The notes under the pieces were generated by a model that ran no database searches, was not told the DNA's origin, and saw only the letters and a program-made list of their open reading frames with translations. Below, in pieces: positions 1-31,197 of a stretch of 32,760 nucleotides of DNA. Numbering within the stretch: position 1 is the stretch's first letter; each line of letters opens with the position of its first letter. The translations under genes and the position numbers were made by a program. The DNA is from Patescibacteria group bacterium (GTDB lineage: Bacteria > Patescibacteriota > Minisyncoccia > UBA6257 > UBA9933). The stretch is taken from the NCBI GenBank assembly GCA_030017615.1, contig JASEIG010000006.1, positions 12,053-44,812 on the forward strand, given 5' to 3'.

Positions 1-63
1 AACTAATAACTAATAACTAATAACTAATAACTAATAACTAATAACTAATAACTAATAACTAAT
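1..63. repeat. Nine perfect copies of the heptamer AACTAAT
   Basis: The first 63 bases are nine uninterrupted, identical copies of a 7-base unit. The array stops one base before the uL11 start codon and leaves no room for a Shine-Dalgarno site. Because 7 is not a multiple of 3, stop triplets fall in every frame. The array may extend leftwards outside the window. It is the most regular member of a family of 7- or 8-base intergenic arrays seen throughout this window. Confidence 0.97.
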
Positions 64-64
64 T

Positions 65-484
65 ATGAAACCAATCAAAACAATTTTAAAAATTCAACTG
101 CCGGCGGGAGCGGCAAATCCCGCTCCTCCTGTCGGAACCGCATTGGGTCCTCATGGCGTTAATATCGCGCAGTTTTGTCAGCAATTTAACGAAGCCACTA
201 AGGATATGGTTGACAATATTGTTCCGGCCGAAATAACTATTTACGAAGACAGAACTTTTGAATTCAAGCTTAAAACTCCGCCTGCTTCGGATATGATTAG
301 AAAAGCCGCCGGTATTGAAAAAGGTTCAGGCAACCCTTTAAAAAACAAAGTAGGTAAGGTTACTAAAGATCAAATCAGACAAATTGCCGAGAAAAAAATG
401 ATTGATCTGAACGCGAACGATATTGACGCGGCGATGAAAATTATTGAAGGCACCGCAAGGAGTATGGGGATTGAAGTTCAATAA
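65..484 (+). CDS. rplK: Ribosomal protein uL11 (L11)
   Basis: Large-subunit protein of the GTPase-associated centre, binding 23S rRNA at the stalk base where elongation factors act. The 139-residue product is close to the usual length. The N-terminal domain has the conserved proline/glycine-rich stretch [19 protein letters not shown] (about residues 13-31). The C-terminal RNA-binding domain follows from about residue 70 ([19 protein letters not shown]). The ATG sits directly behind the heptamer array with no Shine-Dalgarno site. In most bacteria rplA (uL1) follows immediately; here a terminator and an unrelated dehydrogenase follow. Some CPR lineages are reported to lack uL1, so this may be a real loss, but uL1 could lie elsewhere. 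Confidence 0.97.
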
Positions 485-515
485 AAATTGCCGCTTTTTA
501 TTTGTTATGGTTATT

Positions 516-548
516 AAAAAGACAACGCTTACACGTTGTCTTTTTATT
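516..548 (+). terminator. Intrinsic terminator after uL11
   Basis: A 12-bp perfect stem, AAAAAGACAACG pairing with CGTTGTCTTTTT, has a 6-base loop (528-533) and a T-rich 3' arm, 31 bases after the uL11 stop. It separates uL11 from the dehydrogenase. Confidence 0.88.
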
Positions 549-624
549 TATGATGCGTCTGTTCTTTATTATTTTAAGTGTTCTAATGCGTTAGACCACC
601 CCTGTTTTATTATTAAAATTATTT

Positions 625-630
625 TATAAT
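625..630 (+). promoter_or_regulatory. -10 box TATAAT for the dehydrogenase, leaderless spacing
   Basis: A perfect TATAAT ends six bases before the ATG at 637, so transcription would start at or next to the start codon. No good -35 hexamer is visible at the expected distance, and there is no Shine-Dalgarno site. Confidence 0.6.
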
Positions 631-636
631 TAAAAA

Positions 637-1371
637 ATGAATATAAAAGAAAAAGTTGTTTTTATAACAGGAGCGGGAAGCGGAATTGGCTTGGCGACTG
701 TCCGAAAATTATTAATAAAAGGCGCGAAAATAGTTAACTTTACTAAAACCGTAACCCCCGACCTTGAAAAAGAATTTAATTCTGAAAATACGCTTTTAAT
801 TGAAGGCGATGTTTGCAATCGCGATCAGGTAAGACAAGCTGTAGAGCGGACGATTAAAAAATTCAAAAGCTTGGATATTTTAATCAATAACGCTGGCGTG
901 GCTAAACACGAGCGGTTTATGGAAACCGATGAAAAAGATTGGAATTTTGTGATTGATGTGAATATGAAAGGAGTTTTTATTTGTATCCAAGAATTCATCA
1001 AAATTAATCAACGATCAACAACCAACCCCGCTTCCTTCGGGGCAAGTGACCAACAACCAGAAAAATTAATTGTAAATATTTCCAGCGGAGCGGGAATTTA
1101 TGGAATTGAAGAAATCGCGGTTTATTCAGCCACTAAAGCCGCGGTTATTAACCTAACCCAATCGTTAAACGAAGAATTTAAAAACAGCGGCGTTAAATTC
1201 ATTACTGTTGCTCCGGGGTCAACAAATACAAAAATGTTTTCTTCTCTTTTTCCCGAAGAAAAACCCTATCACACTCCCGAACAAGTCGCGGATGTTATTT
1301 ATAAAACCGTCACTGGCAAAATAAAATCCGACGACCGTCTTATTGTGGATGTCTTCCATCACATAAAATAA
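637..1371 (+). CDS. Short-chain dehydrogenase/reductase with an in-frame palindromic insertion
   Basis: NAD(P)-dependent oxidoreductase of the classical SDR family; the substrate cannot be told. The Rossmann motif TGAGSGIG is at residues 11-18, NNAG at 84-87, the catalytic serine in NISS at about 149-150 and YSATK at 163-167, giving the Ser-Tyr-Lys set. The 244-residue length is normal only because residues 125-143 (QRSTTNPASFGASDQQPEK) interrupt the usual short link between the helix and the IVNISSG strand. That segment (1009-1065) is made of CAAC-type heptamers around a CCCCG/CGGGG palindrome, and looks like intergenic repeat DNA inserted in frame. The gene stands alone, with a leaderless-type start at 637. 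Confidence 0.9.
   Translation: MNIKEKVVFITGAGSGIGLATVRKLLIKGAKIVNFTKTVTPDLEKEFNSENTLLIEGDVCNRDQVRQAVERTIKKFKSLDILINNAGVAKHERFMETDEKDWNFVIDVNMKGVFICIQEFIKINQRSTTNPASFGASDQQPEKLIVNISSGAGIYGIEEIAVYSATKAAVINLTQSLNEEFKNSGVKFITVAPGSTNTKMFSSLFPEEKPYHTPEQVADVIYKTVTGKIKSDDRLIVDVFHHIK
1009..1065 (+). repeat. In-frame repeat insertion inside the SDR gene
   Basis: Period-7 units related to GATCAAC and GACCAAC flank the palindrome CCCCG (1026-1030), loop CTTCCTT, CGGGG (1038-1042). The units match, on the opposite strand, the heptamers before tRNA-Ser (31161-31197). The segment keeps the reading frame and encodes 19 low-complexity residues absent from a standard SDR fold. Confidence 0.7.
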
Positions 1372-1620
1372 TTAAAACATTTTTTGACTTCACAGTCATT
1401 AATTTATAAATTTGCATTATGACAATTAACTGGTAACAACTTTATAAAAAATACAAAGTATTATGAGTAGCTCTTATTTCTTTTAGGAACTTTTTATTTT
1501 ATAATAATGATTTGGTAATATTTTAAATAATTATTAAACTCACAAAATAAATTCTTTCTCCGCAAAAGTTTTTTTAAAATGATCAGTTGGAATATTTTGC
1601 TTAATGCTAACTACTGATTA
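1372..1620. other. Intergenic region between convergent SDR and scpA
   Basis: AT-rich, with no gene visible on either strand. A weak promoter-like pair (TTGACT at 1384, TAAATT at 1407) leads to no ORF. The right end, 1607-1627, is three degenerate heptamers (CTAACTA, CTGATTA, CTAACCA) that run into the scpA stop codon. No clear terminator for either gene was found. Confidence 0.5.
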
Positions 1621-2334
1621 CTAACCACTTTTTCTTATTTTAATCTCCGAAAATCCTTCTTTCTGTTCAACTTCAATGGTTTGTTCGCGAAGCAGATGAA
1701 GTAATGCCAGAAACATCACCACAATTTCTTTTTTTGACTTTTCTTTTATCAGATGGCCGAAATTATTTATTCCCGTCGTGATTTTAGCCATTATTTCCTC
1801 AATTTTTTCTTCCAATTTTATCAGGGTTGATTCAAGAGTTTGAAATTCCACAGTCATTTGTTTTATTGATTCAAATAAAATTTGTATGGTCTTATTAAGA
1901 AGACTAACGCTTAAATCTTTTGAAGGATAAAAAACCGCCTGTTTGCCCAGTAAATACTGGCGCGAAGCGGAAAAATTTTTCGCTTCATACATTTTTTTAA
2001 ACTCATTTATTGCCGGCTTGAATTCTTTATAAAATTGCAGGCGTTTTTCAAGATCTTTAATGTCTGTTTCTTCTTCTTGTGTCAGTTCCAGACTGGGAAG
2101 AAGCGATTTTGATTTAATTAAAAGCAGTTTTGAAGCAATTACCACGAAATCGGCAATTATCCTGATTTCTTCCGCCGTTCTCTCCTCTCCGGATTTCAAT
2201 GATTTAAGATATTGCAAAAAATCGTCGGTTACCAAAGCCAAATTTACCTCGGTTATTTCCATTTTTTTCTCTTCAATCAGTTCCAGTAATTTTTCCAAAG
2301 GCCCCTTGAATTTTTCCAGATTAATTTGATACAT
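1621..2334 (-). CDS. scpA: Segregation and condensation protein A (ScpA kleisin)
   Basis: Kleisin subunit of the SMC-ScpA-ScpB condensin, bridging SMC heads during chromosome organisation. The 237-residue protein begins with the typical FKGPLEKLLELIEEKKMEI, followed by helices with DFVVIASKLLLIKSKSLLP (about 64-82). It ends with a winged-helix segment (EIVVMFLALLHLLREQTIEV) that binds the SMC head. The middle is charged and helical, as in the family. scpB, which often follows, is absent; on this strand scpA lies downstream of the PEGA protein with a 48-bp gap. The start is ATG without a clear Shine-Dalgarno site. Confidence 0.9.
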   Translation of the reverse strand: MYQINLEKFKGPLEKLLELIEEKKMEITEVNLALVTDDFLQYLKSLKSGEERTAEEIRIIADFVVIASKLLLIKSKSLLPSLELTQEEETDIKDLEKRLQFYKEFKPAINEFKKMYEAKNFSASRQYLLGKQAVFYPSKDLSVSLLNKTIQILFESIKQMTVEFQTLESTLIKLEEKIEEIMAKITTGINNFGHLIKEKSKKEIVVMFLALLHLLREQTIEVEQKEGFSEIKIRKSG

Positions 2335-2382
2335 AAGTTAAACCGTATTTTTTATATTTTTAAATATGTCTTGTTAAAAATA

Positions 2383-3642
2383 TTATTCAGAAAAGTCAAT
2401 CCGTTTTAAAGCGTTATTTTCTATGAAATAAAAAATGTTATTTTCATTATTATAATAATAGCTTGATATGCCGGAAATTATATCGGCAGAATTCAATTCA
2501 GGTCTGTCGTCTATTTCCACTAATTTTACGGCGTAACCGTAATCAACAAGCAAATGGAAAGAATCTTTGCGCCATTCCAGATTTTTTATTTTACTCATAT
2601 CGCTCAAACTAAAGTTTATGACATCGCCGGCTTTTTTCTTTATATCCGAATTAAAATCTTCCAAAAATAAAACATTTATCAGCCCGTCGTTTTTAAGAAT
2701 GGCGATTTTTTTGTTGTCTGGAGAAAACGCAAATAATTTTACGTTGCGCGAAATTTTTTCGGGAGACCGGCTATTTTTTAAAATATAAAGATTTCCATTT
2801 GCGCTTGATAAAGCGGCAATATTATTTCCTGAAATTTTTATTTTATCAAGTTTGGAAATTTCTTTCGGCAAATCCGCTATAATTGTTTTCGCTTTAAATA
2901 TCAAATTAAAAGAATACAAAGCGCGCGAATTTTTATTGTTAGTTTCTATGATATATAAATTTGGATTAACCAGCGTCCAAGTTTCCGCCGCCCCGCTTAT
3001 TGTTTCCAATTTTGAATTTTCAAAATCAAACAGTTTAAGAATATCGTTGTCATCCACAATAAGCTGGCTTGTTTTAAATGGCACGAAAACCGCATTTTTG
3101 ATTATCGCCGATTTTTTTATGTTTGAAATAGCGATTTTTATATTCAATGTTGATGACGGCTTGCTAATGTCATAAAGATAAAAACTCCCGTTTTCAGTGT
3201 TTTTAATTATAAATTTGCCGTCATTTGAAACATCGATTATGACATTTCCCTTAATTGAAAGAAATATTTTTTCTATTTTCGGATTTTTGGGAACTAAAAC
3301 GATATTTATAATTTCTTCCACCGCTGACGGCTGAACTTTCAATGTTTTGTTGTAAGAAGAATATCTTTCTTTCTCGATTTCTACGCGGTATGTTTTTGGC
3401 AACAAATCGGACACAAGAGTGCCGCTTTGTATAACACTGGAAAAATCGGGATAAACTTTCCCGTTTATTTTTATAACGACGTCTCTGGGCTGGGTTTTAA
3501 TATAAATCGCTCCGATTTTCTGAATTTTGAAATTATCAAAATTCAGCCGCCATCCCAGAGCGTAAAAAACAATAATTGTTCCCGCCGCCGCAAATAAAGC
3601 GCAAAATGAATAAAACAAAATCAGACGTTTTTTCTGATGCAT
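2383..3642 (-). CDS. PEGA-domain membrane-anchored protein
   Basis: Unknown function. An N-terminal membrane segment (about residues 7-27, LFYSFCALFAAAGTIIVFYA) is followed by a PEGA-like domain (IKTQPRDVVIKINGKVYPD, then ...YRVEIEKERYSSYNKTLKV). About 300 residues of beta-rich repeats follow, resembling a degenerate propeller (FSPDNKKIAILKNDGL and similar blades). It is probably anchored in the membrane with the bulk outside. I chose the ATG at 3642, giving about 419 residues; an upstream TTG at 3666 would add eight hydrophobic residues (MGIIFLIF) and is less likely. It is probably cotranscribed with scpA. Confidence 0.7.
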   Translation of the reverse strand: MHQKKRLILFYSFCALFAAAGTIIVFYALGWRLNFDNFKIQKIGAIYIKTQPRDVVIKINGKVYPDFSSVIQSGTLVSDLLPKTYRVEIEKERYSSYNKTLKVQPSAVEEIINIVLVPKNPKIEKIFLSIKGNVIIDVSNDGKFIIKNTENGSFYLYDISKPSSTLNIKIAISNIKKSAIIKNAVFVPFKTSQLIVDDNDILKLFDFENSKLETISGAAETWTLVNPNLYIIETNNKNSRALYSFNLIFKAKTIIADLPKEISKLDKIKISGNNIAALSSANGNLYILKNSRSPEKISRNVKLFAFSPDNKKIAILKNDGLINVLFLEDFNSDIKKKAGDVINFSLSDMSKIKNLEWRKDSFHLLVDYGYAVKLVEIDDRPELNSADIISGISSYYYNNENNIFYFIENNALKRIDFSE

Positions 3643-31084: not shown

Positions 31085-31197
31085 TGTTTAACTATAAGTT
31101 ACTAGTTAGTTGCTAGTTATTTGTTATTAATTATTAATTATTGTTATTTATCATTTATCATTAGTTGTTGGTCGTTGGTCATAAATCGTTAGTCATT
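31085..31197. repeat. Degenerate heptamer array abutting tRNA-Ser
   Basis: The right part reads cleanly as 7-base units: TTTATCA, TTTATCA, TTAGTTG, TTGGTCG, TTGGTCA, TAAATCG, TTAGTCA (31147-31195). The left part is older and more decayed. The array ends about one base before the mature tRNA. Its GACCAAC/GACTAAC complement matches the insertion in the SDR gene. Confidence 0.82.

Follow-up and report, generated by a model that had tools for sequence, protein, structure and literature searches.

The Rickettsia palindromic elements (RPE) and the protein-coding palindromic repeats of Wolbachia are dispersed repeats which lie both in intergenic DNA and, in frame, within unrelated conserved genes whose enzymes are apparently still made (PMC10969869, PMC2229807). 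Bacterial heptanucleotide tandem repeats have been described from cyanobacteria, from Beggiatoaceae (TAACTGA) and from Xanthomonas and Nostoc (GGGNATC) (PMC4679880, PMC4692102), and tandem repeats inside the ORFs of Borgs are known to keep the frame and to create new protein stretches (PMC9879509). No relevant report of such repeats in Patescibacteria was found in the open-access literature. Here, a repeat tract is described from a 32,760-nt stretch of a Patescibacteria genome (hereafter the window). The tract is likely (probability of about 0.7) to be a translated dispersed repeat resembling the RPE, but far smaller, nested in heptanucleotide arrays and with its frame kept by selection.

Repeat tract within the SDR gene

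The tract lies in frame within a gene for a classical SDR dehydrogenase (Table 1), the product of which matched the Pfam family adh_short (PF00106, 4.1e-47) and FabG-type relatives in the PDB. It keeps a strict 7-nt register throughout, the 21-nt core between its flanking heptamers reading CCCCGCT TCCTTCG GGGCAAG. The palindrome CCCCG-N7-CGGGG occurs only here on the plus strand of the window. With the core taken out, 19 of the 28 positions compared in the flanking heptamers match at lag 7, whereas the best 35-mer in 300 codon-shuffled SDR genes scores 18 and the rest of the gene 13. As the period is 7 nucleotides and not 7 codons, a coiled-coil heptad was ruled out as its source. The RNA of the tract has a predicted fold of −7.9 kcal/mol (z −0.43), single-strand folds of the tracts were not better than those of shuffles (z −0.4 to −1.5), and no Rfam family was matched within window positions 500–2400. 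An AlphaFold2 single-sequence model of the SDR protein gave a mean pLDDT of 34.9.

Table 1. Features of the SDR gene, its repeat tract and the core-free arrays in the window.
Feature	Position	Strand	Basis
Classical SDR dehydrogenase gene, 244 aa, carrying the tract in frame	637..1371	+	Pfam PF00106, FabG-type relatives in PDB, translation
Complete repeat tract, 8 x 7 nt, the 21-nt core having three heptamers before it and two after	1005..1060	+	Register, lag-7 test, alignment with relatives
Upstream heptamers TAATCAA CGATCAA CAACCAA	1005..1025	+	
21-nt core CCCCGCTTCCTTCGGGGCAAG (CCCCG-N7-CGGGG-CAAG), dispersed through the genome	1026..1046	+	Genomic copies, contexts
Palindrome left arm CCCCG	1026..1030	+	Pairs with 1038-1042 in predicted fold
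Palindrome right arm CGGGG	1038..1042	+	Predicted fold
Downstream heptamers TGACCAA CAACCAG	1047..1060	+	
Tract-encoded peptide, about NQRSTTNPASFGASDQQP, between helix alphaE and strand IVNIS			
SDR stretch that a tract-covering peptide would hold, NQRSTTNPASFGASDQQPEK			
Intergenic array, nine AACTAAT heptamers	1..63	+	Ends just before ATG (65) of ribosomal protein L11-like gene
Intergenic degenerate heptamer array, consensus about YYAAYRA, before tRNA-Ser (GGA)	31114..31197	-	
Two GACCAAC copies within the tRNA-Ser array	31167-31180	-	

A sequence-only reading of the window had proposed a heptamer repeat with a palindrome at 1009–1065, in frame within an otherwise intact dehydrogenase. The repeat is real, given the copies of the core across the genome and the lag-7 score above the shuffles, and the SDR is indeed intact apart from a loop in which repeat-type DNA is read as protein; the tract does exist at this place, but the 7-nt register sets its best bounds at 1005–1060. 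The insert had also been placed in a normally short link, with a clean 19-residue gap expected against homologues. Repeat DNA does occupy the link, yet the length of the link already varies among relatives, and the net excess was 12 and 13 residues (36 and 39 nt) over the two closest short-loop relatives (G045 and G006) instead of 19. In three genomes of one other genus (G001, G017 and G021) the loop is of unrelated sequence and just 2 residues shorter. None of the relatives aligned carries an insert of the same sequence.

Copies of the core in the genome

The genome to which the window belongs comprises 566 kb in 25 contigs and is about 98% complete. Allowing up to three mismatches, CAACCCCGCTTCCTTCGGGG was found in 16 genomic places, and a looser core pattern in 20, with no match to either in the reversed control. 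The core is 21 nt long with a 5-bp stem, and its usual form is a 28-nt unit consisting of CCCCGCTTTCTTCGGGGCAGG and the heptamer CAACCRA, present in one, two or three tandem copies. The consensus of this unit has no stop in any of the six frames, and in most copies of the core the tetranucleotide CAGG or CAAG follows the stem. Locus-specific variants were observed, namely GGAG in IleRS, GGGA with a paired TCCCG at the second IleRS site, CCACG in glycerate kinase and CAACCGA heptamers in PNPase. That the variants differ by locus argues for real, separately diverging loci and not for assembly errors. Compensated stem variants were found both in this genome (TCCCG..CGGGA) and in an Omnitrophota genome (G436; CCTGAATACTTCAGG).

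Twelve core sites were found in the genome, nine of which lie in frame within long open frames; this overturns the earlier view that the repeat DNA is otherwise confined to gaps, and arrays of heptamers alone are intragenic too. The nine sites fall in eight genes, encoding the SDR, IleRS (two sites), PNPase, an aspartate-type aminotransferase, a glycerate kinase of the MOFRL type, an O-antigen-ligase-like protein, NusA (a degenerate copy) and MnmA. The identities of IleRS and PNPase were confirmed by PDB relatives, while the remaining gene names were read from the sequence; the NusA, MnmA and aminotransferase segments also have counterparts of about 60–73% identity in genomes of the same family. 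The three intergenic sites are located between ruvC and nusA, downstream of an rplL-like gene and on contig C18. PNPase has two tandem units and IleRS and glycerate kinase three each, three units of 28 nt being a frame-restoring copy number. Because the second IleRS site coincides with a contig break, the number of its units is uncertain; the frame is open on both sides. The PNPase insert is spanned by the peptide TDQQPTPLSSGQATDPAFFVAGNR. It should also be noted that residues about 568–740 of the IleRS (locus L086, contig C4, 3891–6824) form a histidine-phosphatase (phosphoglycerate-mutase-like) domain, which matches PDB phosphatases and is flanked by two IleRS stretches.

Intragenic sites were examined in three genomes, and all 13 of them keep the frame and contain no stop. 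These open frames suggest that the repeat DNA is apparently translated as extra protein loops. All nine intragenic copies of this genome are in the sense orientation, as are three copies of one Omnitrophota genome, and one copy in the ArgRS gene of another genome (G281) is antisense.

Heptamer arrays without the core

Five arrays with a period of 7 were found in the window, against none or one at the other non-multiple periods. When the window, the other loci of the genome and the relatives were considered together, arrays of period 7 were at least five times as numerous as those of any other period except its multiple 14, with masked N runs slightly inflating the counts of the relatives. The sequence-only reading had linked the heptamer GACCAAC of the tract to the array before tRNA-Ser; two copies are indeed present there on the minus strand, but this is weak evidence, since the window holds four matches with 1.4 expected. 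At the start of the window (1–69), nine perfect AACTAAT heptamers extend right up to the ATG of the L11-like gene and occupy the place expected for its Shine-Dalgarno site. Heptamers of the AACTAAT type have stops in all six frames and were found outside long ORFs.

Heptamer arrays within ORFs were surveyed in this genome and its relatives at loci chosen around genes. In-frame arrays were observed at locus L087 (contig C9), at 532–568 in IleRS (AAATCCG) and at 2707–2747 in glycerate kinase (AAAATCA), and at L088, at 1932–1971 in the O-antigen-ligase-like gene (AAATCTC); some such arrays sit in genes already holding a core insertion. A ribosomal protein S2-like gene (L095, contig C24) enters a heptamer array which forms its C-terminal end (KITNNQQSITDNQ).

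Occurrence of the core in other genomes

None of the 40 closest genomes contains the core, although those tested keep the same genes, and no exact match was found in viral contigs. A scan of public genomes for the exact core gave one other match, in the Omnitrophota genome G436, where AAGCTGC heptamers surround an in-frame copy in CarB. The IspD of this genome holds two 28-nt units with AAGTATC, and its PriA-like protein carries a core variant with the stem altered on both sides, both in frame; matches with one mismatch also occur in Omnitrophota. In G281, a genome of the same phylum as the window but of another class, GAGATTT-core-GAGATTT is present at several places, with a GATATTT version within ArgRS. 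The core is thus shared among these genomes, and the heptamer is what differs by genome and by site. Two other matches of the phylum scan, in a glycosyltransferase of G413 and in a different REP-like repeat of G349, were set aside as probably due to chance or to another family.

Genes for Y1 transposases (PF01797) number five in G281 and three in G436, with none detected in the genome of the window. One core of G281 (C22:15496) lies about 0.8 kb from such a gene (C22:16280–16615).

Loop lengths in relatives

The same loops are used repeatedly among relatives, which carry their own, different heptamer arrays in those of PNPase, LepA and MnmA. The PNPase loop region, 69 nt long in G024, has 90 nt in both G005 and G004 and 132 nt in the genome of the window, the steps being exactly 21 and 42 nt; its heptamers are ACCAACR in G005, where the core is absent, and AAACAGN in G004. 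Against 75 nt in six relatives, the LepA loop reaches 96 nt (+21) in the genome of the window, where it holds heptamers but no core, and 159 nt (+84) in G023. In this last genome, of another family, the LepA gene has a heptamer array facing an inverted copy (ACTTAGA/TCCTAAG; L185, 1818–1897), a potential large hairpin. The MnmA loops hold different heptamers in most genera examined, and the length differences of the MnmA and SDR loops are not clean multiples of 21. In PolX the heptamers differ while the length is constant, the sequence having been replaced.

A wider test covered 103 PNPase loops of one order. Loops of 12 residues were the most frequent (n = 45), followed by 13 (n = 21) and 19 (n = 17), with lengths of 14–18 totalling 12; the second peak, at 19, thus lies 7 residues (21 nt) above that at 12. 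The 19-residue loops came from at least seven families, eight of the 17 belonging to one family, and the loop of the genome described here, with 33 residues (+21), was the sole one of its length. Since loops of 14–18 residues exist, two of 17 residues with clear heptamers among them, the 21-nt steps represent a tendency and not a rule. Strong local arrays in long PNPase loops had a lag of 7 in five genomes, compared with one for all other lags from 4 to 12 together.

Other palindrome-like stretches were seen in frame in an aminotransferase of G003 (L176; SLRGAERRSN) and in the MnmA of G025 (L195; ILPRAEPRG), the latter among AAATCCG and AAACCCC heptamers. These suggest that other genomes have core elements of their own.

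Origin of the repeats

If the tract is a translated dispersed repeat, short arrays may arise in intergenic DNA and in protein loops tolerant of indels, and would lengthen or shorten 7 nt at a time through strand slippage or template switching. Copies of the 21-nt core (3 x 7) would then pass between arrays, the simplest route being recombination or template switching among those that share a heptamer. Purifying selection would retain the stop-free, in-frame products, and as only these survive, insertions in essential genes would tend to have lengths divisible by 21 nt (7 aa). The extra loops were probably not selected for a function, being instead neutral or of slight cost. A broader proposal may be made, in which some DNA-level process with a fixed 7-nt step rewrites heptamer arrays in protein genes order-wide, while the 21-nt hairpin cores spread from one array to another and from phylum to phylum (Omnitrophota) and the loops of essential enzymes are continually rebuilt in 7-residue steps; this is tentative and rather doubtful.

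The matching 7-nt flanks of the core (pairs of GAGATTT or of GATATTT in G281, AAGTATC in the IspD of G436 and CAACCGA in PNPase) could instead be read as 7-bp target-site duplications of a REP- or MITE-like element moved by a transposase such as Y1/RAYT, yielding 28-nt insertions, and the Y1 genes of G281 and G436, one of them close to a core, fit this explanation. It is nevertheless considered unlikely: no Y1 transposase was detected in a genome 98% complete, the flanks in this genome are nearly one heptamer at every site where random targets would be expected, and the core-free heptamers in the PNPase of G005 indicate that arrays exist without insertion. Target duplications are not expected of RAYT-type REP elements. 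A selected function of the hairpins in RNA or DNA (mRNA processing, attenuation, nucleoid or gyrase sites) would account for the paired changes that keep the stem in some copies and for the same orientation relative to the gene in 12 of the 13 intragenic copies, but the folds no better than shuffles, the lack of an Rfam family and the absence of the core from all 40 closest genomes, those tested of which retain the same genes, make it very unlikely.

The insert might also be missing from the product, through removal of an intron or through ribosome bypass as with byps, the hop elements that are bypassed in some yeast mitochondria. Bypassing elements have the kind of layout seen in the tract, a short hairpin between direct repeats within a conserved enzyme; however, byps and introns need not keep the frame or avoid stops as all 13 intragenic sites do, the tandem copy numbers in IleRS and glycerate kinase are frame-restoring, and the predicted fold of the SDR tract is weak, so that this explanation is highly improbable. 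That a diverged low-complexity loop mimics a repeat by chance can scarcely be credited, in spite of the variable length and sequence of the SDR loop among relatives, given that the core was found 20 times in the genome and never in the reversed control, and that the lag-7 score lies above all 300 codon shuffles.

As translated dispersed repeats, these sequences would show that protein-coding palindromic repeats are not limited to the Rickettsiales but also occur in very small genomes and in essential enzymes (IleRS, PNPase, NusA, MnmA and LepA), and they would connect such repeats with heptanucleotide repeats, the abundance of which is poorly explained. A 7-nt step combined with a 3-nt code leads to the quantitative prediction that loops grow by 7 residues, which may be checked in thousands of genomes. 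Caution is also advised in annotation and structural work, as seemingly specific loops in such proteins may be translated repeat DNA.

Comparison with known systems

Like the RPE, the core is a dispersed palindromic repeat found in frame in unrelated protein genes (nine sites in eight genes). The RPE, however, are about 100–150 bp long with long terminal inverted repeats and a conserved peptide, while the unit described here has 21–28 nt and a 5-bp stem, is tandem and nested in heptamers, is read in all three frames and occurs in unrelated phyla; because of the difference in unit length the tract was not filed as an RPE. With the REP/RAYT systems it shares a short hairpin and a fixed tetranucleotide (CAGG) on one side of the stem, but REPs are mostly extragenic, and here no Y1 transposase was detected and the flanks have a 7-nt period. 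The 7-nt direct repeats flanking the core could represent MITE-type target duplications, but arrays occur without the core too. The 7-nt period, the genome-specific motif and the many intergenic arrays are those of heptanucleotide (STRR-type) repeats, and the AACTAAT array ending before a start codon resembles the TAACTGA arrays of Beggiatoaceae (PMC4679880). Known heptanucleotide repeats are under-represented in genes or lie mostly at protein ends, whereas those described here occupy internal loops (PNPase, LepA and MnmA) and have a hairpin core embedded in them. Finally, the repeat units in Borg ORFs are divisible by three, whereas here the units are of 7 or 28 nt and just their total is divisible by three.
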